A stretch of 64,000 bases of DNA. Source: Sphingomonas telluris (GTDB taxonomy: Bacteria > Pseudomonadota > Alphaproteobacteria > Sphingomonadales > Sphingomonadaceae). Position 1 is the stretch's first letter, and every line of letters starts with the position of its first letter. A program made the translations under genes and the position numbers. Positions 3,638 to 25,636 of the stretch are shown one piece after another. The notes below the pieces were generated by a model. That model made no database searches, had not been told where the DNA came from, and saw nothing but the letters and a program-made list of their open reading frames with translations. The stretch covers positions 1 through 64,000 of the forward strand of contig NZ_JAKZHW010000002.1 of NCBI RefSeq assembly GCF_022568775.1, given 5' to 3'.

Positions 3638-3760
3638 CTAAACCGCGACCGTACCCGAACGCGCTCGCGCTTCGGCGATTGTTTTGCGTGCGAGGTCGTC
3701 CGCCACGATGTTGGTCGCGCTTTCAAGCTGGCGGGCGTCCCACCAAATCAAGCTCAGCGC
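3638..3760 (-). pseudogene. C-terminal remnant of an unknown gene upstream of mmsA
   Basis: Between the RidA gene and mmsA, the minus strand carries about 40 codons with coding-like third-position GC. They read SLIWWDARQLESATNIV and then DDLARKTIAEARARSG, and end with TAG at 3640-3638. There is no start codon, and the frame is closed just inside the RidA gene. The stop touches the ribosome-binding site of mmsA, as in a true operon partner. I infer that an mmsA neighbour lost its 5' part when the DNA to the right arrived. The family is not recognised. Confidence 0.4.
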
Positions 3761-4104
3761 TTCTCACTCGGCTTTTTTGCTACAAACTCAATTTCAATGA
3801 GGGCGCCCTCGAGAACCAGACCTGCAACCGTGGTCGAGCGTGCGGGTCGATGGTCGCCGAAGTACTGTGCGTAGGCTTCGTTGGCGGCCTCAAAGTTTTG
3901 CGCGTCTGTAATCCAGATGGTCGTCTTCACCACGGTCTCCCGCGTCATGCCGAGTTCGGCAAGATAGACATCGAGATTGCGGAAGATCTGCTGCGCTTGG
4001 GACGTTATACCGCCTTCAACTAAAACACCTGGTGCCTCGAAGCCAATTTGGCCTGAGAAAAACACGAACTCATCGGCGACTACGAACTGAGATAAATGAG
4101 CCAC
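3754..4104 (-). CDS. RidA family protein (enamine/imine deaminase-like)
   Basis: This 116-residue protein has the usual RidA/YjgF length and fold signals: an N-terminal EFVFFSGQIGFE, a central QAQQIFRNLDVYLAELGM helix, and the C-terminal ARSTTVAGLVLEGALIEIE, whose Arg and Glu are the positions that bind substrate carboxylate and water in active members. Family members hydrolyse reactive imines made by amino-acid oxidases and PLP enzymes. The GTG at 4104 follows AGAGGAG. It lies downstream of a FAD amine/amino-acid oxidase, which fits a role in clearing the imine product. It appears to be last in the leftward run. Confidence 0.85.
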   Translation of the reverse strand: MAHLSQFVVADEFVFFSGQIGFEAPGVLVEGGITSQAQQIFRNLDVYLAELGMTRETVVKTTIWITDAQNFEAANEAYAQYFGDHRPARSTTVAGLVLEGALIEIEFVAKKPSEKR

Positions 4105-4127
4105 TTAATCTCCTCTTCCATCAAATC

Positions 4128-4562
4128 CTAAGCGATCGCCGCCTTCTCGATGTTCATCTCTGCGGCACGGCCAAGCGCGTCTAAGTAGGCACCGCAGGAA
4201 GCCGTCAAAGCGTCAGGGCCACTATACCACCCGGTCATTTCTACAGTACCGAAGCGAACACTCACGCAGGCGCTTACGTGCCATTCGCCGTTGTTCCTCC
4301 GACCGCCCGAAACGTTGAGCCTTTCCAGCCTTCCATTGGTCCCCAATATCTGATTGATCGCGCGGAACGCTGTCTCGACACCTCCTTCGCCACTTGCGAG
4401 ATCCGTCAGCTTGCCTCGGATTTCGTGAAGGAGCTCAATCCTGACGGCCACGTCATTCCCGCGTACCATCCGTGTCCGAATGTCGACACGTTTGAACTTC
4501 CACGGTGACCGAGCGTGCTTGGGGCCGGTCCCTCCGAGATTGCGATGAATCACCGGAGCCAC
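4128..4562 (-). CDS. stand-alone LeuA-type regulatory (dimerisation) domain protein
   Basis: This 144-residue protein resembles the C-terminal allosteric domain of 2-isopropylmalate/citramalate synthases without any catalytic barrel. The signs are GEGGVETAFRAINQIL (compare G-GPVDA-FKAI), then a strand with EWHVSACVSVRF, and GPDALTASCGAYLDALGRA (compare the D-I-ASA-AYLNALNRL end of LeuA). In LeuA this domain binds leucine. It sits 5 bases after the FAD oxidase stop and 23 bases before RidA, so it is co-transcribed with both. A ligand-sensing or accessory role is only a guess. The family link is my pattern reading, not a search result. Confidence 0.55.
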   Translation of the reverse strand: MAPVIHRNLGGTGPKHARSPWKFKRVDIRTRMVRGNDVAVRIELLHEIRGKLTDLASGEGGVETAFRAINQILGTNGRLERLNVSGGRRNNGEWHVSACVSVRFGTVEMTGWYSGPDALTASCGAYLDALGRAAEMNIEKAAIA

Positions 4563-4567
4563 GTCGC

Positions 4568-5800
4568 CTAGGCCAGCACGCTTTGCTGAGCTAATTCGAT
4601 TGGCCTGCGATCGAAGCTCAGAAAGGTTCTCGGAACGGCCGTATCGAAGGCATGCTTACTACCCGCTATGGCTTGGGCAATAAGCGACCCGATGGCAGGC
4701 GCCAGCTTGAAACCATGGCCGCTGCACCCGTTAGCGACGAAGAAGCCACCGAGTGGTGTTTCGCCCACAATTGGATGAACGTCAGCCCAGTTCATGGTGT
4801 ACAGACCGCTGTACCCGCGAACACCGCGCAGCGGGCCAATTGACGGCATTCGATGTTGAACGGCGTGAAGCTTCGAGCGAACAAAGCTGTCATCAGCGGA
4901 ACGGTCAAATTCGTCCGGGTCGTCCACCGTCTCGCGTTCGTCTTCTGGCAATACGGAGCCAACGATGATGTGCTTCCGCTGACCTTGGGTTCGAAAGTAA
5001 ATTCCTCCGGCCAAATCGGCACACACGGGCATGCTTCCGGGCAGATGCGGGGGCATGTCAAACTGGGCCATCTGAATCCGGGTGGGTCGTAAGGGCCAGC
5101 GATCTGCCAGCCCCACCTTGGCCAGGAGTTGATTACACCACGGGCCACTCGCGTTTACTACTAGGCCGCACGCGTACCCTGACCCGTCCGCAAGCGTCAC
5201 GCCCGCGACCCGATCAGAGATTGTTTCTATACCAGTCACCCGCGCGCCGAACTGCACTTCGACACCATTGTTACGAACAGCGGTCAGCAGATCCTGAAGG
5301 GCGTCCGTCGGCTCGATATACCCACCCTCACTTTCAAGGATGTATCTCTCACCTGAGCGACACTCGTGAGGTTCGCCAGCCAGAAGATCAGGCGGAATTG
5401 TGCAGGGGCTCAGGGCTGGGAAATTATCCTGAACATCGGCGTCATCGAGCAAGGTGGCTGCGACCCCCAGACGCTGCAGCCGAGCAACCTCGGCGCTGCT
5501 GCCTATGCCGCCGCCCAGCCAAATGACGCCCGTTTGATGGAAGCGAGCAACCGGCGCTGTCAGCTCAAGGAAATCGCTCCAGTTGCGGTAGGCTCGTATG
5601 CCGTCTTTTGCGAGCTCGACCATCTCGTCGCGAGAATATCGGAATCGACAGACAGCCGAGGATGCACCTGTCGAGCCTTCGCCCAGTCCTGCCCCCTTCT
5701 CTAAGACAAGAATCCGGTCCGAAGTTCTCAGCGCCAGTTGGTACGCTACACTCAGGCCAATAACGCCTGCGCCAACAACGACGATGTCCGTAGATTGCAT
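4568..5800 (-). CDS. FAD-dependent oxidoreductase, DAO family (amine or D-amino-acid oxidase-like)
   Basis: This 410-residue protein opens with the dinucleotide-binding motif IVVVGAGVIGLSVAYQLA, followed by an acidic strand end (LVLEKG) and GSTGASSAVCRFRYS. The C-terminal GYSGLYTMNWADVHPIVGET and NGCSGHGFKLAPAIG are the flavin-binding end of the DAO fold, closest in style to sarcosine/dimethylglycine oxidase beta-type proteins. Expected reaction: oxidation of a secondary amine or amino acid to an imine. The RidA gene downstream fits that. The start at 5800 (MQSTDIVVV) is set by the motif. Substrate unknown. Confidence 0.82.
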   Translation of the reverse strand: MQSTDIVVVGAGVIGLSVAYQLALRTSDRILVLEKGAGLGEGSTGASSAVCRFRYSRDEMVELAKDGIRAYRNWSDFLELTAPVARFHQTGVIWLGGGIGSSAEVARLQRLGVAATLLDDADVQDNFPALSPCTIPPDLLAGEPHECRSGERYILESEGGYIEPTDALQDLLTAVRNNGVEVQFGARVTGIETISDRVAGVTLADGSGYACGLVVNASGPWCNQLLAKVGLADRWPLRPTRIQMAQFDMPPHLPGSMPVCADLAGGIYFRTQGQRKHIIVGSVLPEDERETVDDPDEFDRSADDSFVRSKLHAVQHRMPSIGPLRGVRGYSGLYTMNWADVHPIVGETPLGGFFVANGCSGHGFKLAPAIGSLIAQAIAGSKHAFDTAVPRTFLSFDRRPIELAQQSVLA

Positions 5801-5958
5801 TTCGCACCTTCACGCATGAGACGGACAACAACGAACTCGTTCGGCGGTGACGATTCCGACTTGGCCGATGAGATTCCGACGACGTGTGAGCCGAGCCTGA
5901 CCCAGACAGAGCTACCGCGTCGCTATTCGGGGCAGGCCCAGGCTTCCTAACCCTCCGG

Positions 5959-8214
5959 TTAGAAAGCGTATTCCGCAGCAAGACCGAACGTGCGCGGCTG
6001 AACTGGAATCACGGTGTATTGAATCGGAAGTCCAAGCAGCAGCGTCCGTGAAACCGCCCCTTTCGAACCCGTGAGATTCCGACCGTAGATACGCACGGTC
6101 CAGTGCTGATCCACCGTAAGTTCACCGTGAGCATCCAGGGTTGTGTAGGCGGCTGCGGGTACGGACCCGGGACTACTCTCCACAAGTGACAGGCGCCGCC
6201 CGATATGGCGAACGCCAGCGCCTACGTTCGCGCGGTTGGAGCCGACGTCAAAGCTATAATCCGCGGTGAGCGACCCGCTCCATTTGGGAGCATTCGGAAG
6301 GCGGTCCCCGTCAAGCCCTCCGATCGGCGGCGCATCTTCGGTCAGGTATGCATCCACATAGGAGCCATTTGCCGCGAGGCTAAGAGCAGGCACGGGATGA
6401 AAGATCAGTGAACCCTCGATGCCCCGACTTCGGGCACGGCCGCCGTTAACCGCGGCGCTGACCCCGCCGATGACCTCGGTAAGCTGAATTTTTTTCCACT
6501 CCAGATCATAGGCAGCAAACTCGAAAGAGAGGCGGGGGTCGATGAGAGTTCCCTTGATCCCGATTTCATAGCTGGTGAGCCTGCTTGACTGAACCTGTGG
6601 CGGCACGCCCGGAACTGCGACGTTCGGGCCGCCGGGGAGATACCCGGTCGCAATCCGCCCGTAGATCATCGCAGTCTCGCCGAGATGAATTTGCGGGCTC
6701 ACGCTGAAAGTGAACACGTCCTCGTCTGATTGGCCGGGTATATTCTTCGGAGTTCCGAAAAGCAGACCACTCGTGATCTGGCGGAAGTCCTGCTTATTTC
6801 GCGCCCAACGCATGCCGCCTGTAAAGTCAAACGAGTCCGTGAGGTGGAAAGTACCGTTCCCGAAAATTGCGAACTCGCGGTAGGTCGTGGGAAGAGAAAC
6901 CTCTGCCAGCGGATTGAGCGCTGGGATCGGCTCTTCATTCATGGTCAAGGCGGGTACGACCTGGCGGTTCTCTGTCTCTTCATGAGTATAGAAGCCGCCG
7001 ACCAACCATTCGAAGCGGCCGCCGTTTGGCGAGGTGAGCCGGACTTCTTCCGTAACCTTATCCAGGTCGAGGCTGAGGTCGAATGGCGCTAATCCGGCTG
7101 GAATCGCACCTCCCGTGAGCAGCGGATACAGCGACCCGTAAACCCGGCTCGCATCGATCGTCTGGCGGATTTTCGTACTGCTGTAGCTTGTCGCGGAAGT
7201 GAGTGTCGCAAAGCCGAAGTCATAATCCAGGGTGCCTGAGTAGAACTGGAATTTCTTGGTGAAAGGCTCGTCGAGGTAGTTGTTATTCGCATATCCGTCG
7301 CCGAGACGTTCGCCAGTGGATATTTCCTCCACGACCTGCGCATTGTTGTCGGAATCGACCTTCTGGTAGATTGCCGAGAAACGCGCCGAGAAACGATCGT
7401 TGGGCTTGACCAGCAGGCTGAGTCGGCCGCCCAGCTGATCATAATCATTCTGGTCGCGGCGCCCGGTCTGGACGTTGTTAACGTAACCCGGCGATTTCCG
7501 ATAGGCGATGCTCGCGCTGAGCCCGACGCGGTCCTGCACCACGGGCGTGTTGATGAGTGCTTGACCCGCGTAACCGAAGCCGTGGGCGTGATCGATGTCG
7601 AAGACCTCTCCACCGACTACCCCGCTGGTACGAGTTAAGCTGGGAGTCACCGTGACATATTTGATGAGGCCACCGATCGAACTCGCGCCGTACAGCGTCC
7701 CCTGTGGTCCGCGGAGGATCTCGAGCCGATTGATGTCGTAGGGCAGCAGATCGAGAGAGAAGATGCTGCTCCGTGCGTAAATGCTGGACGACCCAACCGG
7801 CGCATCGTCGACATATATCCCGACGGTCTGGGCTCCCGTTAGAGGAGTCACGCCACGCAGAGTCACTGTGGTCTGCCCGGGAGTACCGGCACTGTCGACC
7901 TGCAGACCCGGAACGTAACCGGAAAGGTCGACGAGTTGCGTCGCGCCAGCCTTGCGCATCTGGTCACCGGCGACAACGCTGATCGAGATCGGCACGTCCT
8001 GGAGGATCTCTGGCCGCTTCTGCGCCGTGACCACGATCTCGCCCTCGCTGCCAGCGAGCGACGGCTGATCGGGAGACTTCGGTGCGCTAGCGTCGGCAGG
8101 CTGGCTCGACGACGCCTGTTCTGACTGCGCGTGTGCAGCTGTACCGGCACACAATGCAGCCGCAGCTGTCGTCAGGCTCATCCACCGAAGGCGAACTTGG
8201 ACACTACGCTTCAT
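5959..8214 (-). CDS. TonB-dependent outer-membrane receptor
   Basis: A 751-residue receptor. The start is placed at 8214 because it gives a signal peptide (MKRSVQVRLRWM, a hydrophobic stretch, AHAQ) preceded by GGGAGGGAAAGC; the frame remains open further upstream without coding character. The plug follows (EIVVTAQKRPEILQDVPISI near residue 50, then LRGVTP and EILRGPQGTLYGASSIGG). The rest is a beta-barrel ending in an aromatic residue (GLAAEYAF), the outer-membrane insertion signal. Such receptors import bulky substrates with TonB energy. Its place between an MFS carrier and catabolic oxidases suggests nutrient uptake rather than iron. Confidence 0.92.
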   Translation of the reverse strand: MKRSVQVRLRWMSLTTAAAALCAGTAAHAQSEQASSSQPADASAPKSPDQPSLAGSEGEIVVTAQKRPEILQDVPISISVVAGDQMRKAGATQLVDLSGYVPGLQVDSAGTPGQTTVTLRGVTPLTGAQTVGIYVDDAPVGSSSIYARSSIFSLDLLPYDINRLEILRGPQGTLYGASSIGGLIKYVTVTPSLTRTSGVVGGEVFDIDHAHGFGYAGQALINTPVVQDRVGLSASIAYRKSPGYVNNVQTGRRDQNDYDQLGGRLSLLVKPNDRFSARFSAIYQKVDSDNNAQVVEEISTGERLGDGYANNNYLDEPFTKKFQFYSGTLDYDFGFATLTSATSYSSTKIRQTIDASRVYGSLYPLLTGGAIPAGLAPFDLSLDLDKVTEEVRLTSPNGGRFEWLVGGFYTHEETENRQVVPALTMNEEPIPALNPLAEVSLPTTYREFAIFGNGTFHLTDSFDFTGGMRWARNKQDFRQITSGLLFGTPKNIPGQSDEDVFTFSVSPQIHLGETAMIYGRIATGYLPGGPNVAVPGVPPQVQSSRLTSYEIGIKGTLIDPRLSFEFAAYDLEWKKIQLTEVIGGVSAAVNGGRARSRGIEGSLIFHPVPALSLAANGSYVDAYLTEDAPPIGGLDGDRLPNAPKWSGSLTADYSFDVGSNRANVGAGVRHIGRRLSLVESSPGSVPAAAYTTLDAHGELTVDQHWTVRIYGRNLTGSKGAVSRTLLLGLPIQYTVIPVQPRTFGLAAEYAF

Positions 8215-8360
8215 GCTTTCCCTCCCACTTTTCCAAGAACGCGAAACACGGCTACGGCGGCGGCATGGCCCACGAGATGGACGGTTCGCCCCAATCGTCT
8301 CCCCAGGATGTATGGGCACAGCCTCTCCCAAAGCGGGATAACATGCAAGACCGTATTTTA

Positions 8361-9641
8361 TTAGTCCTCGGTGTCGCGTTCGACGGACGTGGCGGCCGCC
8401 CATAGGGCCATCCCGGAAAGCACTAGGGCCGCGAACGCGATCATGAGCGAATATCGTAACCCAACCGGACCGTAGGCCGCGCTGAAATGATCGCTGAGCA
8501 CACCGGTGAGAACTGGGCCGAGGCCGAGACCTACCAAGTTCGCGAAAAAGAAGAGGATTGCGACTGCCATCGAGCGCCGGGGTGACCCACAAATCCGATG
8601 CAGCAACGTAAAGAAAGCAGGCACTGCGGCACTAAGGCCCACCGCTCCAACAAACGATGCCGCATAAAAGAGGACGGGTTCGTTACTGAAAAGCGCGAGC
8701 TCATAAAAAGGAACCACGCCAATCATGATCAGTGATGGCACGCGCGCAGCGTAAGCCCCACCGCGCCTCGTCGCGAAATCGGTAATAAGACCGCCGAAGA
8801 CACTGCCCACGAGAGAAGCGACGGCGCCGAGTGCCCCGAAGATGGCACCGACCGACACGAGGTCGAGATGGAGGACCCGCACCAGATAGGAAGGGAACCA
8901 GATCACCGCCCCATAGGCGACAAGAAAGTAAAGTATGGTGGCGACGCAGAGGAGTACGAATGTGCGCTTGCCTGCCAATGCTGCCAGTGTCGTGCGAAGC
9001 GACTCCTGCTGCGGCCTTTGATCCTTCTGCGTTCGCAGCCTCGGTTCTCGAAGTCCAAACAGCGTTAGGACACACAGGAGCAAACCGGGTGCTCCAAGCG
9101 CAACGAAGGCCGACCGCCAGCCATGAGTCGCTGCTAGCCATGCACCTAAGGTGAAAGCCAGCAGGTAGCCGGCCGTTGACGACGAAATGAATACGCCAAG
9201 TGCACGCGCGCGTTGATCGGGAGGAAAGTAGTCCGCGATGAGCGACTGCGCGGGAGGCATCGCCCCCGCCTCGCCTGCTCCGACACCGACGCGCGCCAGG
9301 ACAAGCTCGGGCAAAGTTCGTGCCATGCCGCAGAGGAGCGTCATTATACTCCAGACGGCCAATGCCGCAGAGATGACCAGCTTACGGTCACCGCGATCGG
9401 CAAAGCGCGCCACCGGGAGGCCGAGTGTGGCGTACAAGGCGGCGAAAGCGAAGCCGCCAAGTAAGCCCATCACCGTGTCGGAAGCGTGAAATTCCGCCTT
9501 TATCGGCTCAATCAGTACCGACATGACATGCCGATCGATGGAGCTCGACGCGGAAGCGAGAAACAGGATACCAAGAAAACCCCAGCGCTGCGACGGACGG
9601 TACAAAGTCCACGCAGGTGCGCGGTCAGCCTCGCCGCTCAT
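8361..9641 (-). CDS. MFS transporter
   Basis: This 426-residue protein has about 12 hydrophobic segments. The MFS loop 2-3 signature is present as LPVARFADRGDRKLVISAAL, and LARVGVGAGEAGAMPPAQS matches the motif of transmembrane segment 5 in organic-anion and hexuronate-type carriers. It is an inner-membrane carrier, probably proton-coupled. Its ATG overlaps the stop of the DUF885 gene by four bases (ATGA), so the two are translationally coupled. The receptor gene follows 146 bases later. A role in moving the island's substrate into the cytoplasm is inferred. Confidence 0.9.
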   Translation of the reverse strand: MSGEADRAPAWTLYRPSQRWGFLGILFLASASSSIDRHVMSVLIEPIKAEFHASDTVMGLLGGFAFAALYATLGLPVARFADRGDRKLVISAALAVWSIMTLLCGMARTLPELVLARVGVGAGEAGAMPPAQSLIADYFPPDQRARALGVFISSSTAGYLLAFTLGAWLAATHGWRSAFVALGAPGLLLCVLTLFGLREPRLRTQKDQRPQQESLRTTLAALAGKRTFVLLCVATILYFLVAYGAVIWFPSYLVRVLHLDLVSVGAIFGALGAVASLVGSVFGGLITDFATRRGGAYAARVPSLIMIGVVPFYELALFSNEPVLFYAASFVGAVGLSAAVPAFFTLLHRICGSPRRSMAVAILFFFANLVGLGLGPVLTGVLSDHFSAAYGPVGLRYSLMIAFAALVLSGMALWAAATSVERDTED

Positions 9642-11356
9642 GCAACCAACTGCTCCGTAGCGCTGGCAATATTCTCGGCGACCAGCGGGAGCGGCAGGGC
9701 GCCAGGCTTGAGCACCGCATCGTGAAAGTCGCGAAGATCGAACCGCTCCCCAAGACGCGCCCGCATCTCTTCACGCCTCGCTGTAAGAAAGTGCTCGCCA
9801 ATCTTGTAGGCGAGCGACTGTCCCGGAATGTCGCATGAGTAACGGATGCTCTCGGAGCGGATCTCCGTCTCGGGCACGAAAGCGTTCTCGCGCATAAACG
9901 TGCGCGCCTCTTCCAGCGACCAGCCCATGGCATTCATCCCCGTGTCGACGACCAGGCGACAAGCAAGAAATGCGTCCATCATGAGCCGCCCAAAACGCTC
10001 CTCCGGCGCCTGGTACATCCCCAGCTCCCCCGCAAGGGTTGCGGCATATTCGGCCCAACCCTCATTGAACGCATTGAACAAAGCGTTGGCCCTCACGGGA
10101 TGCAGAGCCTCGTTCTCCCGCTGGGAGGCCAAATGAAAATGATGTCCGGGAACAAGCTCGTGGTAATTTAGGGACGCGATATTGCCGAGCGGACCGCCGG
10201 CCAAGTTGGTGGCGTTGAAGAGGTATCGGCCAGCCGGCTGGTTCGGCCCGGGTGCGTCATAATATCCGAACGTCATCGAACCGGCGAGCATCTCCGGGAG
10301 CGGCGCTGCGGCGTGCGGTGCATTCGGCTTGAAACGAAACACGTCGTCCAGAAGAGGCGCGATTCGTTCGATGTAGCGATTGAAGAACGCCTCAATTTCC
10401 TCGGAACTTTGTGCACGCCACGCGGGATCCCGCCCGGTAGCGGCCAGGTAATCGGACGGAGAGCCCTCGAATGGTACTTCGCGGATCAGTTCCGCCATCG
10501 CCGCGCGGACGGCCGCCACTTGCTCGAGACCTTGAGCGTGCACTTGCTCCGGGGAGACGTCGAGCGTGGTGTGCTCGTGAACCAGCTCCCGGTATAGTGC
10601 TTCACCGCCTGGATACTGGGCTATGCCGACGGTTTCGGGCGCGCGTGCGTCGTAGTCCGCTTCGGAAAGCAGCGAGAGTAATGTTTCGAAGGCGGGGTCG
10701 ACGGCGCGATCCAACCGCTCCCGGATGAGGTCCGCGGCTCTGTCTGAGCCCGCCCCCTGGAGCCGATCGGACGATGGTACCAGGGCGGTCACCCCACGGC
10801 GGAACCGCGAGACCAGTTCGCGTGACTGTTCGAGCTGCGGGCGGGGAATTCGTATGCCACGTCGGGCCTGACCGGCGGTCCGTTCCCGCAGCTGATCGAT
10901 CAGGCGCGCATAGTCCTCCAGCAATCCGAGATAACGATGAAGATCGCCCTCCGTCTCGAAGGCGAACTTGGCAAGCATTCCGCCGACGTGCCCGAGCAAA
11001 AAGCCCCCGCAGTAGGCCGTGGGCGCGAACATCGCGAAGAACCCGATGCCGAGCGGATCAAAGGCCAGCCAGTAGCGATCTGCCTCAGCTGCCATCCGCG
11101 CTGCGGTCAGCCTGGCGACGGTGTGCGTTAACTTCAGTTCGCGAGGCAGAAACGCCTCGTTGGCGCGGTCGAGAGCGTATAAGGCCTCTGCTGCGCGACG
11201 ACTACGAGCGGCAACGGCAGCCTCGCCGATGTCCGGAAGCCTATCAACTGGCAGTCCTAAATCGCGCTCGACCCAAGGCGTGCGTCGAACCTCTGCCCAC
11301 ACCTTGTCGATGCCGACTAGCGCCAGTGCAATCGCCTCTCCCGTGGCATCGTCCAT
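9638..11356 (-). CDS. DUF885 family protein, putative zinc-dependent hydrolase
   Basis: This 572-residue protein has the DUF885 signature NYHELVPGHHFHLASQREN in the second half, an HExxxGHH-type metal site, followed by NEGWAEYAATLAGELGMY with the expected Glu. It ends with DIPGQSLAYKIGEHFLTARRE. Family members are related to M32/M3-like metallopeptidases and are often secreted in proteobacteria. No signal peptide is seen here (MDDATGEAIALALVGIDKV), so it is probably cytoplasmic. It heads the leftward run, divergent from the TetR gene, with a palindromic operator between them. A peptidase activity is likely but unproven. Confidence 0.85.
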   Translation of the reverse strand: MDDATGEAIALALVGIDKVWAEVRRTPWVERDLGLPVDRLPDIGEAAVAARSRRAAEALYALDRANEAFLPRELKLTHTVARLTAARMAAEADRYWLAFDPLGIGFFAMFAPTAYCGGFLLGHVGGMLAKFAFETEGDLHRYLGLLEDYARLIDQLRERTAGQARRGIRIPRPQLEQSRELVSRFRRGVTALVPSSDRLQGAGSDRAADLIRERLDRAVDPAFETLLSLLSEADYDARAPETVGIAQYPGGEALYRELVHEHTTLDVSPEQVHAQGLEQVAAVRAAMAELIREVPFEGSPSDYLAATGRDPAWRAQSSEEIEAFFNRYIERIAPLLDDVFRFKPNAPHAAAPLPEMLAGSMTFGYYDAPGPNQPAGRYLFNATNLAGGPLGNIASLNYHELVPGHHFHLASQRENEALHPVRANALFNAFNEGWAEYAATLAGELGMYQAPEERFGRLMMDAFLACRLVVDTGMNAMGWSLEEARTFMRENAFVPETEIRSESIRYSCDIPGQSLAYKIGEHFLTARREEMRARLGERFDLRDFHDAVLKPGALPLPLVAENIASATEQLVA

Positions 11357-11373
11357 TCACCGCTCCCGATTTT

Positions 11374-11387
11374 GTACACTAGTGTAT
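11374..11387. promoter_or_regulatory. palindromic operator, TACACTAGTGTA
   Basis: A perfect 12-base palindrome lies between the divergent DUF885 and TetR genes, 18 bases before the DUF885 start codon. The same half-sites with the same 4-base spacer occur at 18441-18454. It is the natural candidate site for the adjacent TetR protein. Confidence 0.7.
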
Positions 11388-11467
11388 CTCGTAGGCGAGT
11401 AAAGCTTGGCAGGACAAGGCACGGGTGGCAGGGTGAGAGAAATGTTCGCTCATATGGAGAGCCCTTA

Positions 11468-12079: not shown

Positions 12080-13254
12080 CGCGTACGTTCGATTAGGTCG
12101 CCGGAGATATCGCGAACAGAGGTGCTTCCCAAGAGCGCCATCGTCCGCGCGACTTCGTCGGCGAGCAAAGTCAGTGCACGAACGACACCCGCTTCTCCTC
12201 CGGCAGCAAGGCCGTAGAGGTAAGCGCGGCCCAAGGAGCAGGCATTAGCGCCGAGAGCGAGCGCTTTGACCACTTGGCTTCCACGACGCACGCCGCCGTC
12301 CACGATGAGCTCAGGGGCGTCTCCGACCGCATCGCGAATCCCAGGCACGAGGTCGACGGGCGCGACGGCTCCGTCGAGTTGGCGACCGCCATGGTTCGAG
12401 ATCATTATTGCATTTGCCCCAATCTCGACCGCCCGCTTCGCATCGACGATAGATTGCACGCCTTTGATAACGAATGGTCCGGGCCAAAGCGCACGAAGCG
12501 CGGCAGCATCGTCCCACCCCACTGTCCTATCGAACTGCCCGTTGACGTAGTCGATCAGGCTGACGCTCTTTCCTTGGAGCGCGTCCACCCGATGTGCGAC
12601 GTTCTTGATATCGAAATCGGGATTGCGCAGGAAGGCTAGCAGCCAGGCGGGATGGCTGGCGAAACTGACCAAGCTTCTTAGGGTGAAGCGCGGCGGCATT
12701 TCCATGCCCGTCACCCGGTCCCGCTCCCTGTTCCCAGCTACCGGCGTGTCGATGGTGAGGCAAAGCGCGTCGTAGCGCGCCGTCACGCACCGTTGAACCA
12801 GCTCCGCCGTCAGTCCTTTGTCCTTGAACAGATAGACTTGGAACATTTTCGGGCCAGCAGTCGTGATCGCGATGTCTTCCAGCAAGGTCGTGGCCATGGT
12901 GGACAATGAGTAGAAAGTCCCGGTCTTCCCCGCTGCGCGCGCGACCGCCGGCTCCGCGCCATGATGAAACAGCCGCGACATGCCCGTCGGAGACAGAATG
13001 AAAGGGACCGCGATGCGCTGGTTCAGGAGAGTTGTGGACGTGTCGATCGCTGAGACGTCGCGAAGCGTTCGCGGCAGAAAGCTGTAGTCATCGAAAGCCG
13101 AGCTGTTTCGTCGAAGCGTAACTTCGTCGTCCGATCCGCCGTCGATGTAGTTAAACAGAGCAGTTGGCAGCTTGCGCCAAGCCAGAAAGCGCAGGTCCTC
13201 AATACTAAAGCAGCGCTTGAGCGACCTGGGGCGGCGGGCGGGTTCCAGCGTCAT
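12076..13254 (-). CDS. FMN-dependent alpha-hydroxy-acid oxidase/dehydrogenase
   Basis: This 392-residue protein belongs to the L-lactate/mandelate dehydrogenase and glycolate oxidase family. The start (CFSIEDLRFLAWRKLPTALF) and YIDGGSDDEVTLRRN are the usual N-terminal elements. The active-site segment ISNHGGRQLDGAVAP carries the catalytic His and the substrate-binding Arg, and LIVDGGVRRGSQVVKAL binds the FMN phosphate. It oxidises an L-2-hydroxy acid to the 2-oxo acid. It is last in the run that begins at 18292, 61 bases after the esterase gene. Substrate specificity cannot be read; a hydroxy acid released by the esterase is an attractive guess. Confidence 0.9.
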   Translation of the reverse strand: MTLEPARRPRSLKRCFSIEDLRFLAWRKLPTALFNYIDGGSDDEVTLRRNSSAFDDYSFLPRTLRDVSAIDTSTTLLNQRIAVPFILSPTGMSRLFHHGAEPAVARAAGKTGTFYSLSTMATTLLEDIAITTAGPKMFQVYLFKDKGLTAELVQRCVTARYDALCLTIDTPVAGNRERDRVTGMEMPPRFTLRSLVSFASHPAWLLAFLRNPDFDIKNVAHRVDALQGKSVSLIDYVNGQFDRTVGWDDAAALRALWPGPFVIKGVQSIVDAKRAVEIGANAIMISNHGGRQLDGAVAPVDLVPGIRDAVGDAPELIVDGGVRRGSQVVKALALGANACSLGRAYLYGLAAGGEAGVVRALTLLADEVARTMALLGSTSVRDISGDLIERTR

Positions 13255-13315
13255 GCAACTGTGTCTCCCGCGTAGGCGCCGGCGCCAAAGGATGGATTGA
13301 CCTTACGAAATCTCA

Positions 13316-14245
13316 TCATGCCGCGAGCGGCGATCGACCCGGCTGACCTGGGAGGCAGGTACGCAAATAGTCGGCCCAGGATGCAAGACCACCCGTCGCA
13401 TGCGATTCCAAAGGAATAATGCGACTGGTCAAGGTCAGTCCCTTGAGGGGCTGCGTGCCGGCGAGCATCAGGAACTCGCTAACCCCTGCGCCGATCGCCG
13501 CTTGATAGTACCCGGGCACGGTGAGTTCGGTCTCGCAGACGGTGAGATGCAAACGGCGACCTCCATGATCGACGTCGTCCTCGCGATCCTTTCTGTACAG
13601 GTCGAAAATCCGCGAACTGCCTGCCAAGATTCCTGGACTGCCAGCTCCAATGCGAGTGACGAGCGTTGGCCGCCGAAGGGCGGCATAGGCGGCGAACAGG
13701 CCGCCGTAAGAATAGCCGAAAAGACCGTGATCGCCGGGTTTCACGCGCCATTGTGCCGCAATCATCGGAAACAGTTCGTCGGTGATGAAAGCGAGGAATT
13801 TGTCGGCAGCGGGCGCGCGCAGATGGCGTAGATACAGGTCCGCCCCCTCCTGATCCAACAGCCCCATAGCCACGATTTTGCTCATGCTCTGCTCCACACC
13901 CTCGGGGAGAGCCTCGCCGGGCGGGAGGAGATCCCGTGCTCTCACGGCGAGCGTGCGGCCGGCATCCTTACCGCAATACCCAATGCACACCAGGATGAAC
14001 GGTTCGATCGGGGCGATCGGGTCGGTGGAGAGCATCTGCATACGCGGCGCCGCTCCAGGGGCCATACCGTTACCGTCGGGCGCGAAGACAAGAGTGTAAT
14101 GCTCTTCGCCGTTCAACTCATATTGGGGCGGCACAGTCACCCACACAGCGTAGCGAGCGCCAGCGCGGGCGGAGTCGACTTCGAAATAACGCGTGTTTGG
14201 AAGAAGTGCCCATTCCGGGAATTGCTGTTCGACGAGACCGCTCAT
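13316..14245 (-). CDS. alpha/beta-hydrolase, esterase D/IroE-like
   Basis: A 309-residue protein with the layout of the Fes/IroE/esterase D family. The N-terminal strand pair is RYAVWVTVPPQYELNGEEHYTLVFAPDGNG. The nucleophile elbow is GLFGYSYGGLFAAYAALR (Ser in GYSYGG), and the C-terminal ESHATGGLASW supplies the His. There is no signal peptide. Family members cleave esters, including trilactone siderophores, and some act on carboxylic esters generally. It sits between the DadA-like and alpha-hydroxy-acid oxidase genes on the same strand, with gaps of 50 and 61 bases. Confidence 0.82.
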   Translation of the reverse strand: MSGLVEQQFPEWALLPNTRYFEVDSARAGARYAVWVTVPPQYELNGEEHYTLVFAPDGNGMAPGAAPRMQMLSTDPIAPIEPFILVCIGYCGKDAGRTLAVRARDLLPPGEALPEGVEQSMSKIVAMGLLDQEGADLYLRHLRAPAADKFLAFITDELFPMIAAQWRVKPGDHGLFGYSYGGLFAAYAALRRPTLVTRIGAGSPGILAGSSRIFDLYRKDREDDVDHGGRRLHLTVCETELTVPGYYQAAIGAGVSEFLMLAGTQPLKGLTLTSRIIPLESHATGGLASWADYLRTCLPGQPGRSPLAA

Positions 14246-14295
14246 CGCCTTGCCTTCATGGTGAGAGCCAATTTCGAACTCCGCTGCACAGAACG

Positions 14296-15543
14296 CTAAT
14301 TAAAGAGCCGCGAAGGAGCGAGAGACGAAATGGTGTGAGCGGAACCCTTAGACATCGCGTCCGCCAAAAGTTCTCCAGTTGTCGGTCCGAGTGTGAAACC
14401 TTGATGACCATGCCCGAAGTTGAACCACAACCCACGATGTCGAGGCGCTGCTCCTACAACTGGCATCATGTCCGGCATGCACGGGCGCACGCCGGTCCAA
14501 GGTGACTTTTCGATCGGTTCGCCGATATCCAGTAATTCACGGGCGGCGGCTTCAGCGCGTCGAAGCTGCCGTGGCTGACAATTGCTTGTCGCTGACAGGT
14601 CAGCCCCTGTGGCAATCCGCAGTCCCGCCCGCATCGGGGAATAGATCGCGCCGAAAGCGGCGTCCAAGAGCGGGAGATTAAGACGCGGGACACTCTCATC
14701 GGTCGGATAGTCGAAATGCAGGTGGTAGCCACGCTTTCGAACCATCTCGACCTTGTAGCCCAGTGGGGCGAGCGCTTGCGGCGCCCAGGGCCCTAAGGCC
14801 ACCACCACATGCTCGGTGTCGAAGGTACCCTCGCTGGACCGCAACTTCCACCCGATGGCACTTGGTTCGAAACCAAGAAGCTCCACCTTGAGCAGTTCTC
14901 CGCCCTGCTTCTCAAACAGTGCAGAATAGGCTCGGACCAGCGCGCCAGGGTCGCTGCACGTCCAAGCATCCCGCCAGTGAATGGCCCCGACTAGCGGCTG
15001 GCGCAAAGCAGGTTCAGCGGCAGCGAGAGTTGCGCTTTCTTCCCGCTCAAATTCGATGCCATAAAGGTCCCGTAGTCGTTCTGCCTGGCGCGTTTGCAAT
15101 TCGAAGGCAGCGCCGTCACGAAATGCAATGCGATACCCGTCCCTTCGGATCAGGGTTTCAGCCCCGGACGCCGCAATCCACCTCGCATGATCGTGCGTCG
15201 CACGGCGTGCTAGCGTTGAATATTGCGCGCCAAGTGTCCGATGGTAGTTGGGCGCTGAATGGCGCCAGTACGACACGAGGGACGGCGCCGAACGCCAAAG
15301 GCCGGCAACGTCCCAATCTACGCTGTTGTCGTCCTTGAACGCGATACGGCACAACGTTTTGATGTCGCGCGGTAATGAATAGGGTTCGCAGGCCTCTCCT
15401 TGGATGACGCCTGCATTACCGTAACTCGTCTCGCTGCCAGGTGCAGAGCGGTCCACAAGCACGACGCTAAAACCGCGGGCCTGCAGGGCGAGGGCGGTTC
15501 CTGTCCCCACCATCCCGGCGCCAAGAACCACGACGTTCTTCAC
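14296..15543 (-). CDS. D-amino-acid dehydrogenase (DadA-like) FAD oxidoreductase
   Basis: This 415-residue DAO-fold protein begins VVVLGAGMVGTGTALALQARG, followed by VVLVDRSAPGSETSYGNAGVI; the S-YGNAG element is typical of DadA. The C-terminal GVRPCMPDMMPVVGAAPRHRGLWF and FGHGHQGFTLGPTTGELLAD are also DadA-like. Expected reaction: oxidative deamination of a D-amino acid to a 2-oxo acid and ammonia, passing electrons to the respiratory chain. The GTG start overlaps the stop of the upstream amidohydrolase gene (GTGA), so the two are coupled. It supports a D-residue in the island's substrate. Confidence 0.85.
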   Translation of the reverse strand: MKNVVVLGAGMVGTGTALALQARGFSVVLVDRSAPGSETSYGNAGVIQGEACEPYSLPRDIKTLCRIAFKDDNSVDWDVAGLWRSAPSLVSYWRHSAPNYHRTLGAQYSTLARRATHDHARWIAASGAETLIRRDGYRIAFRDGAAFELQTRQAERLRDLYGIEFEREESATLAAAEPALRQPLVGAIHWRDAWTCSDPGALVRAYSALFEKQGGELLKVELLGFEPSAIGWKLRSSEGTFDTEHVVVALGPWAPQALAPLGYKVEMVRKRGYHLHFDYPTDESVPRLNLPLLDAAFGAIYSPMRAGLRIATGADLSATSNCQPRQLRRAEAAARELLDIGEPIEKSPWTGVRPCMPDMMPVVGAAPRHRGLWFNFGHGHQGFTLGPTTGELLADAMSKGSAHTISSLAPSRLFN

Positions 15544-16781
15544 GGACGAAGTTCGTTCTTGTGGAAGGCGCCAGCCTTCATGATGACCGAAAGATTACTG
15601 CCCCCGCGGCCGAGGATGCGCACGTCCTCGAGCGGATTCCCGTCGACCAACAATATGTCCGCATGAGCTCCGGGTGCGATGACCCCGAGGCGCCCTTCCT
15701 CCATCAGAATTTCAGCAGCGACCGACGTCGCGGAGATCAGGACGTCGAAGGGGTCGAGCACTTCCGCTCGGATGTCGAACTCAATGCCTTGTCGTTCGTG
15801 ATGTTGCGCGAGAAGGTCGGTACCAAAGCCGATCTTCACACCGGCTTCCTTCATGATCGTCAGCCCGGCAAGCATGGCATCAAACAGGTTCGCCAACTTG
15901 TCTATGCTGGGCTGCGGCAACCCGAACTTGGCGCCGTCATCGTTGAGGGCCTTCACGACGGCCAGCGTGGGCACCCCGTAGGTGCCATTCTTCGCCATGA
16001 TGGCAGCGGTATCCGGTGTGAGCATGCTTACATGTTCAATGCAACGCACCCCGAGTTCCGAGCACCGGCGGATCGCTGCGTCGGGATGACAATGCGCAAA
16101 GACGTAGGAGCCGCGCCTGTTTGCTTCGTCGACCGCGGCCAGGATCTCCTCGTCGGTGAACTGGAGCTTGTCGAGCGGGTCCGTGGGGCTGGCGACTCCG
16201 CCGGATGCCATGATCTTGATGGCTCTCGCCCCGCGACGGAACTCTTCCCGGACAGCCTTGCGGACCGCATCCGCCCCATCGGCAATTGCGGTGAAGCGCT
16301 CGTGCCTTGGCGGGCAGCACATGCAATCCGTGAACGCCTGCTCGTGACCGGCTCGGAAGTCGCCATGCCCCCCGGTCTGGGAGATGTAGCGCCCGCTGTG
16401 GTAGAAGCGAGGACTCGGGATCCACCCCTTCTCGATCGCCATTGCGAAGCCGGCATCCGTGCCACCGGCGTCGCGCAGGGTGGTGAACCCGCGATTCAGG
16501 CTCGACTGAAGAAAGTTTGCGGCAAACAGGCTATAATACTCGGCCGGCATCTGGCTGAGCTTCACAACGTCCATGTCGGCGGCCCAGATATGAACATGCA
16601 GGTCGATGAGACCCGGCATGAGGGTGCGCCCGTTAGCTTCGACCCGGACATCGACGGGGGTGTGGATTGGGGCGTCCGACACTTCCCTGATGAACCCGTC
16701 CTCGACCAGGACGTGACCCTCCTGAAGCGCGCGGGATACACCATCGAAAATCAGGGCGTCTGCGAAGAGGACTCGCGTCAT
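15540..16781 (-). CDS. metal-dependent amidohydrolase, Xaa-dipeptidase/imidazolonepropionase-like
   Basis: A 413-residue amidohydrolase-superfamily protein. Metal ligands visible are HVH in GLIDLHVHIW near residue 61, the Lys of AIKIMASGGV that would be carboxylated, the His of VFAHCHPDAAI, the His of CIEHVSML, and the Asp of IGFGTDLLA. This pattern fits the group that includes Caulobacter and Sgx carboxypeptidases and dipeptidases acting on Xaa-Arg, Xaa-Lys or Xaa-Pro. There is no signal peptide. Its ATG overlaps the stop of the M81 gene by four bases. A peptidase role fits the island but the substrate is not determined. Confidence 0.87.
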   Translation of the reverse strand: MTRVLFADALIFDGVSRALQEGHVLVEDGFIREVSDAPIHTPVDVRVEANGRTLMPGLIDLHVHIWAADMDVVKLSQMPAEYYSLFAANFLQSSLNRGFTTLRDAGGTDAGFAMAIEKGWIPSPRFYHSGRYISQTGGHGDFRAGHEQAFTDCMCCPPRHERFTAIADGADAVRKAVREEFRRGARAIKIMASGGVASPTDPLDKLQFTDEEILAAVDEANRRGSYVFAHCHPDAAIRRCSELGVRCIEHVSMLTPDTAAIMAKNGTYGVPTLAVVKALNDDGAKFGLPQPSIDKLANLFDAMLAGLTIMKEAGVKIGFGTDLLAQHHERQGIEFDIRAEVLDPFDVLISATSVAAEILMEEGRLGVIAPGAHADILLVDGNPLEDVRILGRGGSNLSVIMKAGAFHKNELRP

Positions 16782-18292
16782 CGGTTGTGCGCCGCGAGGC
16801 TCGAGGCACGGACTGCATCGCGACTAAACACCTCCGGCTCAGGGGCGCCGCTGGCCCAAGGATCCGCCTCCCGTGGGAAGAAGTTCAGGTTCCTCTTGGT
16901 GTATGGCATTCGTGCGAAGTCGAGCCGCAGCGTCCCTGGCGAGGTCACATGCCAGAGGTGATCAGCGTCGGCTCGAAACCCGGCCTGGTAGTGGTTGCTC
17001 GACTTCACGACGATCAGCCGCCTGTCCTCGAGCGGGATGCCGAGCCCGGTGAAAGCGTCGCGCTCGTAGACTTGGGTTCTGATCGAGCACACGGCGATGT
17101 CGATCCCCCGCGAATGCAGCCAGACGGAACGGCCCATCGGCTGCCTCTGCCCAAACACTCCGGCGCTATGGTTTTCGACGACACCTCTGACCTCGACTTC
17201 GAGATCGATCGGCTCCCCCGAAGTCGGGCCGCATTTCCCGCCAAGTCGCACATCAAGGATCGCCCCAACGCCGGCCTCTGCGCAGACCTGCGCGACGAGC
17301 GGATCCCAGAAAGCGCCGATGACGACATCACTCAGTTCACGCTCCAGCAGCGCGCGGAGGATGAACGTGCTGTCTCCCGGAGCGCCGCCGCCCGGGTTGT
17401 CGGCGAAATCGCCCAGCACGACCTGTCCGTTCGACTGACGAAGCCGATCGATGGAGTCATCGACCCCCGGGTAGTCGGGAAGCAGCGCGTGGCGTTGCTC
17501 GTAAAGCGTGGCGGCGACGTCCCGGGCCACGGTCACGGCCGCGTCTTCATCCTGATCCGCGTAGACCAGGACCCTGGTCCCAACGTCCTCCACGTCGGCC
17601 CAAGGGAAACCGTGAGCGAGGCTCATCGACAGGATTGGACCTGTTTCAGCCGCCGTCAGCCCGTCAACGATCTGGCGCATCGGCGGATCGAAAGTCGGAT
17701 AAAAGCCGACCATCTTGGTGTCCAAGAGGACCGCGACCGGGGCGACCTCGCCGAGCGCAATGCGGCGGCAGAGCGCGTAGAGTTCCCGCGCGCGATCGTC
17801 GAAATCGATGTGCGGATACTCTTTGGCGATGATGATGACATCTGCCTCTGACACCATCTGCGAAGTGAGGTGACAGTGAGGATCTAACTCGACCCCTACG
17901 ACGGCATTCGGAGCGATCCCGCGTACGCGCGTTATGAGATCGCCCTCACAATCGTCGTAACCCTGCGCGACCATTGCGCCGTGAAGCATCAGGACGACGA
18001 TATCGACAGCACCGGCGGCGCTTAGATCGTCCAGAATTGTGTCGCGGAGACGCTCATAAACGGCGCGCACCGTCGGGCCGCCCGGCTGTGCGAAGCTCGT
18101 GATCGTCTCGACCACGTCGCATCCGTCGGCCTCGGCACAGCTACGGAAGACTTTCAGAGGCCCACCCAGCGGCGAGCTGTCGTTGAGCGACGTATCGCGT
18201 CCAATGCCATATTCCTCGAAAGCGGACAGCGCCGTCGGAAACGGTGCGAAGGTGTTGGTTTCGGTCGCGAGACCGCCGATGAAGACGCGCAT
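16778..18292 (-). CDS. M81 family (MlrC-like) metallopeptidase
   Basis: A 504-residue member of the microcystinase C family. The N-terminal GGLATETNTFAP has the conserved Glu, and VGVELDPHCHLTSQM gives the D-x-H-x-H metal site. ADNPGGGAPGDSTFILRALL is a family hallmark, and VVKSSNHYQAGF holds the third conserved His. Known MlrC proteins cleave the linear tetrapeptide made during microcystin breakdown in sphingomonads; many M81 members have unknown substrates. It heads the leftward run of five genes and is divergent from the D-aminopeptidase-like gene across an operator-like palindrome. Confidence 0.88.
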   Translation of the reverse strand: MRVFIGGLATETNTFAPFPTALSAFEEYGIGRDTSLNDSSPLGGPLKVFRSCAEADGCDVVETITSFAQPGGPTVRAVYERLRDTILDDLSAAGAVDIVVLMLHGAMVAQGYDDCEGDLITRVRGIAPNAVVGVELDPHCHLTSQMVSEADVIIIAKEYPHIDFDDRARELYALCRRIALGEVAPVAVLLDTKMVGFYPTFDPPMRQIVDGLTAAETGPILSMSLAHGFPWADVEDVGTRVLVYADQDEDAAVTVARDVAATLYEQRHALLPDYPGVDDSIDRLRQSNGQVVLGDFADNPGGGAPGDSTFILRALLERELSDVVIGAFWDPLVAQVCAEAGVGAILDVRLGGKCGPTSGEPIDLEVEVRGVVENHSAGVFGQRQPMGRSVWLHSRGIDIAVCSIRTQVYERDAFTGLGIPLEDRRLIVVKSSNHYQAGFRADADHLWHVTSPGTLRLDFARMPYTKRNLNFFPREADPWASGAPEPEVFSRDAVRASSLAAHNR

Positions 18293-18440
18293 GGATGCTT
18301 CCCGATCAGTCTTCCAGCGCCCGCCAGGTGGGCGCGGCGACTAGCACGGATGTGGAGCCTGGCTTTGTAGTGCTCATACGAATGGCGAACTCAGCATCGG
18401 TCAGGATCAAGCCGTTCATCCTCAGCTATGCAGAAATATC

Positions 18441-18454
18441 ATACAGTAGTGTAT
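18441..18454. promoter_or_regulatory. palindromic operator, ATACA-GTAG-TGTAT
   Basis: Half-sites ATACA and TGTAT are separated by four bases, the same geometry as the site at 11374-11387. It lies between the divergent M81 and D-aminopeptidase-like genes, 55 bases before the latter's likely start at 18510. It is inferred to bind the island's TetR protein. Confidence 0.65.
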
Positions 18455-18509
18455 ATTGACTTGACCCGGATCAAAAGGGAAGACGCAATCTGCGCGAAGG
18501 AGGATGCCC

Positions 18510-20102
18510 ATGACCGACGTCCTAACTGAAGAGATGTCGTTGCAGCCCGGTTCGCGGGGAGCAGCTCGCGTCGATCCCGCCGAACTAGATAAGCTGCTCG
18601 ATCCTTTTGACCGGACTGGTCAGCCAGGATTCGCGGTCGGAGTCAGCCTTGGAGGGGTGCCGCTATATCGCCGTGGAGTGGGCACCGCGAGTGTAGAGCT
18701 CCCGATTGCCCTGTCCCCACAAATTCGGATGCGCATCGGATCGACAACCAAGCAGTTCTGCGCCCTCGCCATCATGCTTTTGGCCGAAGACGGGCAGCTC
18801 AGTATCGAGGATACGCCGCGTAAGTATGTCCCGGAGCTGCCGGATTGGGCGGATGAGTTCACCATCCGCCAGCTCCTCTCCCACACGAGCGGAATGCGGG
18901 ACAGCTTCGATCTTCTGTTTCAGACATGCGGACCCGGAATAGTGACGCCGCCCGACACACCGCTGAAGATGCTGCTCGATTTCGATGACCTGAATTACAC
19001 GCCGGGAGCCAGCTGGCGCTACAACAATAGCGGCTATGTCCTGCTCAGCGAGATCGTTGAACGCGTAAGCGGACAGACTTTCGGTGATTTCCTCCGCACC
19101 CGCATCCTCGAGCCCGTTGGAATGTACCAAAGCCTCCTCCGCCCCCTCGACACGGACATGTTGTCGAACAGCGCCTCGCTTCACTCGCCCCTGCCGGGTG
19201 GCGGTTGGTCGAGGGGCGTGTTCGGCGTCCCACTCCGCGGCGAAGGGGGCCTGGTGTCGACCGTTGACGACATGCTCCAGTGGCTCAGGCACATGTCTGA
19301 CCCAGTGGTCGGCAGCCATGACAGCTGGCAGCAGATGCGCACGGCCTGCTCCACCCACGGCTATGGGTTCGGACTGTTCATGCAGAAGCATCGTGGTCTC
19401 GACACGGTACATCACGCCGGCGCAGTCGCGGGCGGAAGCAGTCAGGCGCTCAAAGTTGTCGACTACGACCTCGACATTGTCGTGCTGAACAATAACGGCC
19501 TGAACGTCCTGGCGATGTACCAGCTCGTGGACGCCATCATCGACGCGTGCGTGCCAGGCCTGCCTCCCATTCCGGCGGATAGCGGAGCAACCCCGTTAGG
19601 TGGGACTTTCTACTCAAAGGCCACTGGGCGCGTGATGGCCCTCATCCCGCACGAGGGAGCTCAACTGGTGAACCTTTCCGGAATGATGCTGCCGACCAAC
19701 CGGGACTCGGACGGCGGGATCACGGTCCAGATTGTTCCTACTGACCTTGTCATTCGCCCAGACACCGAAGGGTCCAGGCTGGAAGTTCGTGAGTTTGGAT
19801 CCGACGATATACTTGACCGAATAGAGCCTTCACCGGGCGAATCTCTCGACGAGTGGGTCGGCGACTACAGCATCGTTCCCGGAAAGATTTCGGCTGCCTT
19901 GTCCCGTAGCGGCGACGGGTTCCAACTCAGTCTCGTTAACGGCCTGGGATCTCTGACCTATCCTCTTGTGCCCTTGGGCCCGCGACTCTGGCAAATGGTG
20001 TCGCCAGTGCCGATGCCGCTAGGTGGGACTCTGGAATTCGAAGAAGGAGCATTCCTGTTCTCAACCGCTAGCACCACACGCCTGCGGTTTCATCGTTCCT
20101 AA
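18510..20102 (+). CDS. D-aminopeptidase/MlrB-like serine hydrolase
   Basis: The protein has 530 residues from the ATG at 18510, which is better spaced from AAGGAGG (18497-18503) than the ATG at 18504. The beta-lactamase fold motifs are complete: Ser78-Thr-Thr-Lys81, Tyr171-Asn-Asn173 and His302-Ala-Gly304. About 190 further residues form two beta-rich domains (LSGMMLPTNRDSDGG and GESLDEWVGDYSIVPG regions). This three-domain length matches Ochrobactrum D-aminopeptidase and the microcystin-pathway MlrB. It should release N-terminal residues from short peptides, D-residues if it follows DAP. There is no signal peptide. It is divergent from the M81 gene across a shared operator. Confidence 0.83.
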   Translation: MTDVLTEEMSLQPGSRGAARVDPAELDKLLDPFDRTGQPGFAVGVSLGGVPLYRRGVGTASVELPIALSPQIRMRIGSTTKQFCALAIMLLAEDGQLSIEDTPRKYVPELPDWADEFTIRQLLSHTSGMRDSFDLLFQTCGPGIVTPPDTPLKMLLDFDDLNYTPGASWRYNNSGYVLLSEIVERVSGQTFGDFLRTRILEPVGMYQSLLRPLDTDMLSNSASLHSPLPGGGWSRGVFGVPLRGEGGLVSTVDDMLQWLRHMSDPVVGSHDSWQQMRTACSTHGYGFGLFMQKHRGLDTVHHAGAVAGGSSQALKVVDYDLDIVVLNNNGLNVLAMYQLVDAIIDACVPGLPPIPADSGATPLGGTFYSKATGRVMALIPHEGAQLVNLSGMMLPTNRDSDGGITVQIVPTDLVIRPDTEGSRLEVREFGSDDILDRIEPSPGESLDEWVGDYSIVPGKISAALSRSGDGFQLSLVNGLGSLTYPLVPLGPRLWQMVSPVPMPLGGTLEFEEGAFLFSTASTTRLRFHRS

Positions 20103-20309: not shown

Positions 20310-20370
20310 ACCTGCGAGCGGTTTGAAAGACCTGTTAGCAATCTCCTCGCCAGATAAATCAGTAGATTGC

Positions 20371-20394
20371 GTCCGCTTTGCATCGAAAACAGAC
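20371..20394 (+). repeat. REP-like palindromic repeat, degenerate copy
   Basis: GTCCGCTTTGCATCGAAAACAGAC has imperfect outer arms (GTCCG and CAGAC) and resembles the GCTTT-GGTCGAAAGC core of the copies at 22653 and 24081. It lies in the gap before the second serine hydrolase. Confidence 0.3.
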
Positions 20395-20510
20395 ACTGTG
20401 CTGACCTTGGGAAACTGCCCTGCTTGGCGCTCTTGTGTCTGCACTGGACCGGGTCAATACAGCGGATCGCGACGGTAGCTGGGCTGGCAGCTTGTCGAGG
20501 GGGATTTGAG

Positions 20511-22529: not shown

Positions 22530-22652
22530 TCGGCGTATACTCCGCTGATGTCCTGATCTCGAACCTAGCGATCGGCTCTATCTTGGCTCTCGACCGCAGC
22601 GGTTTTGATAGGACCCAATCATAACCGCCGGTAAATAAGTCGCGGCATTCGC

Positions 22653-25619: not shown

Positions 25620-25636
25620 AAGACACTTAGATGGAC

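Follow-up and report, generated by a model that had tools for sequence, protein, structure and literature searches.

A candidate island for D-residue peptide catabolism with a putative TetR regulon in Sphingomonas telluris

Comparison with described systems

Natural products of the D-residue and depsipeptide kinds, such as antibiotics, cyanopeptides, and lipopeptides, resist ordinary peptidases, and to our knowledge few dedicated degradation gene sets have been described apart from that for microcystin. Here we analyse a gene set at positions 3754–20102, perhaps beginning at 2127, of a 64,000-nucleotide stretch of Sphingomonas telluris (hereafter, the window; contig NZ_JAKZHW010000002.1 of assembly GCF_022568775.1), in which a first-pass annotation made from the letters had seen a TetR-controlled peptide catabolic island. 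From the computed gene identities, conserved catalytic motifs, two shared promoter sites, and piecewise recurrence in other bacteria, the best reading of the set appears to be the catabolism of D-residue peptides. That the whole set is an acquired island for the import and cytoplasmic breakdown of such peptides, governed as one TetR regulon, has in our estimate a probability of about two in three. None of the papers listed by a literature search, which had most subscription journals outside its reach, described this gene set.

The mlr cluster (mlrBDAC, mlrE, and mlrF) of Sphingopyxis C-1 and Novosphingobium MD-1 and THN1, as described in PMC6563193, resembles the present set in having an M81 zinc peptidase, an SxxK serine hydrolase, and a carrier on a genomic island. 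MlrA is a CPBP-type microcystinase of 36 kDa and MlrD is of the PTR2 type (PMC12474180). Unlike the mlr cluster, the present set has an MFS_1 carrier instead of a PTR2 one, a TetR regulator of its own, and no full-length mlrA candidate, and it adds a TonB receptor, two DAO-family oxidases (DAO1 and DAO2), an oxidase dependent on flavin mononucleotide (FMN), a Rid protein, an esterase, a DUF885 hydrolase, and an amidohydrolase. The M81 protein (16778–18292, minus strand) is a member of its family by both Pfam domains (PF07364 and PF07171) and by its zinc ligands Glu11, Asp137, His139, and His161, which align with Glu39, Asp167, His169, and His191 of MlrC (PMC9982164 and PMC4810221; the former prints His196 once among the ligands); several minus-strand protein queries lacked the first residue, for which this numbering allows. 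The protein gives 332 bits to MlrC (PDB entry ID, 7ylq), and eight of the ten MlrC substrate residues listed in PMC9982164 could be aligned, of which Asn41, Phe96, Asp341, and Ser392 are kept and Trp59, Phe67, Glu70 (near an alignment gap), and Gln468 are not, Ser485 and Arg492 lying outside the coverage. Because of these four changes the substrate of the M81 protein may well differ from that of MlrC. Its score in the curated MlrC model is 346.5 against a cut-off of 999, and a genome search for mlrA (PF02517) gave a single match, a 177-residue open frame at C1:828855 on another contig. An mlr-type cluster for microcystin or nodularin is thus rejected as the identity of the set and is extremely improbable, the zinc ligands and the SxxK motif of the serine hydrolase, like that of MlrB, notwithstanding; the set works like the mlr cluster in outline yet falls outside it, as the first-pass annotation had held when it noted the lack of an mlrA-like gene.

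A second point of comparison is the D-aminopeptidase DAP of Ochrobactrum anthropi (PDB entry ID, 1EI5), with which the DAP-like serine hydrolase of the set (18504–20102, plus strand; PF00144) shares the full-length three-domain fold, including the C-terminal β domains, and the motifs SxxK (STTK, 80–83), YxN (YNN, 173), and HxG (HAG, 304). In a Foldseek search, the predicted structure (mean predicted local distance difference test score (pLDDT), 71.3) matched 1EI5 over 536 columns (template-modelling (TM) scores, 0.66/0.68; root-mean-squared deviation, 9.8; sequence identity in the structural alignment, 18%), the best among the PDB matches listed, the other 49 of which reach a TMq of at most 0.49. 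The NCBIfam score in the DAP model, 103.5, is below its cut-off of 443. The DgcN/DgcA route for D-glutamate and the L-Ala-D/L-Glu epimerases are a third, for related proteins stand in clusters of relatives (loci L018, L098, L106, and L115). Such genes are not among the set in this window, where the DadA-like DAO2 may stand in for them.

Gene content and shared promoter palindrome

All gene classes named in the first-pass annotation were recovered by Pfam and NCBIfam where it had placed them, and its two leftward runs with a divergent gene held, the DAP-like gene diverging from the M81 gene; the plus strand carries the TetR gene as well, and all others lie on the minus strand. An mmsA-like gene and a protein with a LeuA domain had been missed. 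The TetR-family regulator (11372–12079; PF00440) has its domain beginning at residue 46 and a possible GTG start at 11468. The divergent promoter of TetR and DUF885 contains the palindrome TACACTAGTGTA (11375–11386), which we propose as operator 1, and that of the M81 and DAP-like genes contains TACAGTAGTGTA (18442–18453), with one mismatch to TACACTAGTGTA, as the proposed operator 2. When 12-mers of the TetR/DUF885 promoter were sought in nine other intergenic regions, one further 12-mer was found to be shared with one mismatch (11465 against 3735, between mmsA and rid), and it is not palindromic. The palindrome at no more than one mismatch has two sites in the window (mean of 0.01 in 100 shuffles, none with two), and TACASTAGTGTA has two places in the whole genome (3.03 Mb), which are the two promoter sites, with none for the reversed control. 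Since the palindrome is shared by both divergent promoters and TACASTAGTGTA, a pattern fitted to the two sites, has no third genomic place, a single TetR regulon spanning both runs and the DAP-like gene is likely from these sequence matches, and the earlier claim of TetR control over the whole set is supported to that extent. A scan of 818 kb of other loci gave no site. Relatives give weak support for the operator: among 16 related loci scanned, a two-mismatch site lies in the divergent promoter of L103 (its TetR being 41% identical) and another in L104, with none in the other 14.

The second leftward run consists of the M81 gene, the amidohydrolase, DAO2, the esterase, and the FMN enzyme, the first three being joined by four-base overlaps (at DAO2/amidohydrolase and amidohydrolase/M81). 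The amidohydrolase (15540–16781; PF01979) is of the prolidase/Cc2672 type (NF051886, 237 bits; cut-off, 500), with 3mkv (377 bits) and 3feq, a prolidase (331 bits), as its nearest PDB entries. DAO2 (14296–15543) resembles the D-amino-acid dehydrogenase DadA, its top NCBIfam match being NF001933 at 145.4 bits, below the cut-off of 383, and some of its relatives carry the source name D-amino-acid dehydrogenase. The PF00756 esterase (13316–14245) has a Ser179 and a His282 that do not vary across an alignment of five sequences, and its predicted structure (pLDDT, 83.6) gave as the 28 best PDB chains siderophore esterases (EstA/EstB and PfeE) or related serine hydrolases (BES and IroE-like). The FMN-dependent α-hydroxy-acid oxidase or dehydrogenase (12076–13254; PF01070, 432 bits) resembles lactate, glycolate, and mandelate enzymes in the PDB.

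The other leftward run starts at the TetR promoter with the DUF885 hydrolase (9638–11356; PF05960, 388 bits), bearing HELVPGHH at residue 399 and overlapping by four bases the gene for the MFS inner-membrane carrier (8361–9641; PF07690). The TonB-dependent receptor follows (5959–8592; PF00593 and PF07715), with a likely start at 8214, a signal-like N-terminus, and TonB-siderophor as its top NCBIfam model (149 bits, below the cut-off of 223.5). DAO1 (4568–5800; PF01266), an oxidase containing flavin adenine dinucleotide, is closer in NCBIfam and PDB comparisons to sarcosine and N-methyl-amino-acid oxidases than to DadA. The run continues with the LeuA-domain protein (4128–4562) and the Rid-family, RidA-like protein (3754–4104; PF01042, 97.7 bits), the latter scoring 89.1 bits in TIGR00004 (cut-off, 106.25), and it may reach 2127, since an mmsA-like gene for a CoA-acylating (methyl)malonate-semialdehyde dehydrogenase (2127–3626; PF00171; matching annotated mmsA/iolA) lies 127 bp beyond rid and possibly belongs to the run and its pathway. 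This is the second copy in the genome; its paralogue at C1:1696446 is 99% identical in amino acids, and with 87 synonymous against five non-synonymous codon differences the copy is under purifying selection.

An observation in its own right is a LeuA allosteric (dimerisation) domain as a stand-alone protein inside a catabolic run (LeuA_dimer, PF08502, 30 bits; cut-off, 24.9), possibly of 113 residues if started at an internal Met. Among 41 candidates from a search of 5.8 billion proteins, three match, including its own entry, the other two at 79–80% identity. Relatives occur in three of 199 genomes of the family, its own included, the other two being weak and within longer frames, and none was found on plasmids.

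The proposed pathway would begin with uptake of a small D-residue peptide by the TonB receptor and the MFS carrier. Its amide bonds would be cleaved by the M81, DAP-like, prolidase-type amidohydrolase, and DUF885 enzymes, and an ester or lactone bond, if present, by the PF00756 esterase. Released D- and/or N-methyl amino acids may be oxidised by the DadA-like and sarcosine-oxidase-like flavoenzymes, with the imines hydrolysed by the Rid protein, while the FMN enzyme would oxidise a 2-hydroxy acid and MmsA may turn (methyl)malonate semialdehyde into acetyl- or propionyl-CoA. The TetR protein would repress at the two operators until relieved by a ligand. We infer the substrate, the repression, the order and place of the steps, and the roles of the esterase, the FMN enzyme, the LeuA domain, and MmsA; steps on an ester and a hydroxy acid are plausible, as two related clusters (L011 and L104) have a hydroxy-acid oxidase. 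The most ambitious version, in which a single TetR regulon takes a (cyclic) depsipeptide natural product with D-residues and ester bonds all the way from entry at the outer membrane to CoA thioesters, mineralising it fully with the LeuA domain as an amino-acid-sensing helper, and forms an mlr-like yet independent class, is unlikely as a whole.

Recurrence in other bacteria and rival explanations

At E 1e-30, eight of the 199 genomes of the family (own included) have the M81 gene, and within the genus it was found in one of 71 genomes searched, its own, so the set is accessory. In line with the first-pass annotation's description of an island, the set is absent from locus L090, which aligns to 25591–34431 and 1057–2062 and comes from the relative whose mmsA is nearest (97%; genome 86% complete). 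We compared the set by tblastn with 45 loci anchored on M81, each 11 kb or longer, including five plasmid records chosen from 492 matching records and also near-duplicates (Bosea, Paracoccus, and Nitrospirillum); shorter loci (L019, L026, L029, L049, L054, and other short genome-search loci) were excluded from the count. Of the 45, 16 have one or more of the nine other non-transporter families beside M81, and five have two or more. Eight further loci, obtained for other purposes from this genome and from others of its genus, hold none of the ten families. Conserved synteny, which had been suggested as a check, is therefore seen for pieces of the set and not for the whole.

The most telling locus, and the best recurrence beside D-residue enzymes, is L115 of Variovorax paradoxus VAI-C (CP063167), reached via its DAP-like gene. 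As here, it has a TonB receptor (35% identity), TetR and MFS genes (by annotation), and DAP-like (34%), M81 (45%), RidA (31%), and DAO2 (49%) proteins; unlike here, it has a DgcA-like epimerase and an aminotransferase, and no match to DUF885, the amidohydrolase, the esterase, or the FMN oxidase in 19.6 kb. Ensifer locus L114 combines DAO2 (50%) and M81 (45%) with a DppA-type D-aminopeptidase and an annotated D,D-dipeptide ABC permease, and in two further Ensifer records the M81 and DAO2 matches lie ~1 kb apart. DAO2, TetR, MFS, serine hydrolase, and M81 genes stand together in Paracoccus (L107/L111), M81 (66%) stands with a DgcN-like protein in Novosphingobium (L018), and a TonB receptor, DAP-like (57/54%), MFS, and DgcA-like proteins occur in L098/L106. 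L103 has DUF885, MFS, amidohydrolase, and TetR genes and a TonB receptor adjoining a protein with a D-Ser-dehydratase domain; L104 has the amidohydrolase (47%), esterase (46%), and MFS carrier (45%) with a GlcD-like hydroxy-acid oxidase; L011 holds M81, DAO, TonB receptor, MFS, DAP-like, and FMN (48%) proteins together; and L013 is a further related locus. The longest metagenome contigs with M81 (77–82%) and with DAO2 (68–73%) homologues are equal in size and source (25250, 16180, and 7376 bp), so the two probably share contigs. The D-residue enzymes beside these genes, together with the match of the DAP-like model to 1EI5, favour the D-residue chemistry of the first-pass annotation. Two adjoining, diverged M81 genes were also seen in many of L024–L028, L030–L036, L048, L049, L053, and L055.

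Several observations weigh against an island for D-residue peptides. Sequence by itself does not reveal D-specificity, and the DadA-, DgcA-, DgcN-, DppA-, and Rid-type assignments all score below their curated cut-offs; for the neighbours in relatives (the D-Ser-dehydratase domain included) the model named is in each case the best NCBIfam match. In 29 of the 45 M81-anchored loci, M81 stands without any of the nine other non-transporter families, so many M81 genes live elsewhere; among the loci examined no relative has the full set, and on plasmids three of the five M81 loci retrieved carry ABC or TRAP transporters instead. The FMN enzyme has its four closest homologues (56–62%) in L099–L102, where M81, DAO, and DAP-like genes are absent and the overlap with the set goes no further than a TonB receptor, an MFS carrier, or a weak esterase match. 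TetR homologues at 41–42% identity come without a clear copy, L103 having a single site at two mismatches and L098 having none, and TACASTAGTGTA was fitted to its two sites, variants with up to one mismatch having been scanned at large within the window only.

It is possible, tentatively, that the substrate is more narrowly a cyclic or linear depsipeptide with amide and ester bonds and a 2-hydroxy acid, perhaps a D-residue peptide siderophore or a lipopeptide lactone, a siderophore being possibly the substrate solely in this form. The depsipeptide half of the first-pass claim rests on the esterase, with its siderophore-esterase-like fold, and on the FMN enzyme within the M81 run. The top model of the TonB receptor, though under its cut-off, points the same way, as do the partners of a hydroxy-acid oxidase in L104 (amidohydrolase, esterase, and MFS) and in L011 (M81 and DAP-like). 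However, PF00756 esterases act on many substrates, and this one is only 19–23% identical to siderophore esterases; no iron-reductase gene was seen among the window proteins scanned by Pfam; and the FMN enzyme, with a homologue at E 1e-90 in 91 of 199 family genomes and its closest ones apart from M81, could burn lactate. It is somewhat unlikely that the set, in place of one natural product, scavenges L/D dipeptides along with N-acyl or N-methyl amino acids in general, for example from cell-wall or aged protein debris. Such scavenging would suit the breadth of the families (prolidase type, DUF885, and M81), the mixed, recombining neighbourhoods, and the neighbours of DgcA or L-Ala-D/L-Glu epimerase type in relatives, whereas an operator-like site private to two promoters and an M81 gene absent from 70 of 71 genus genomes fit a special substrate better. 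Two unrelated operons brought together by chance in an island are quite improbable: pieces do recur apart, as in L103 without M81 and as M81 with DAO2 without DUF885 in relatives, but the amidohydrolase of the L103-type set lies within the M81 run by four-base overlaps, and the palindrome is common to both runs.

Surroundings and implications

An integrase gene (27921–28799) lies near tRNA-Ser (29242–29332), and G+C per 2 kb is 0.58–0.63 up to 30 kb and 0.62–0.68 past it. A megablast search for plasmid DNA relatives of the island gave 34 records; among the ten matches listed, the mmsA stretch alone matched. A 1-kb element at 1050–2065 is bounded by inverted ends of 32 nt (97% complementary) and contains a 196-residue tyrosine recombinase and a 99-residue open reading frame. 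Its hairpin-like end repeat occurs at ~40 places in this genome, partly clustered, and in two other genomes (G208 and G228), and as a related copy stands at 25593–25622, repeats of this type flank the candidate catabolic island; a link between a REP-like repeat and a tyrosine recombinase would be unusual. Beyond the DAP-like gene, 20367–24069 holds another penicillin-recognising hydrolase, whose C-terminus is hydrophobic, and an S9-type hydrolase, and no copy of the palindrome was found upstream of them. An ECF-type sigma factor adjoins a carboxymuconolactone-decarboxylase-family gene at 24136–25498. The contig start (2–828), with a TPR-repeat gene, recurs inverted at the other end (882000–882827; 93%), and at 56843–63829 a 2328-residue open reading frame carries tandem repeats of ~357 nt (119 residues) across ~58.7–63.9 kb and looks adhesin-like.

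Should the reading of the set as a D-residue peptide catabolic island be true, it would supply D-specific peptidases and oxidases. As the module is recognisable by its gene content and its private operator-like site, the inducing peptide may be findable by reporter screening.

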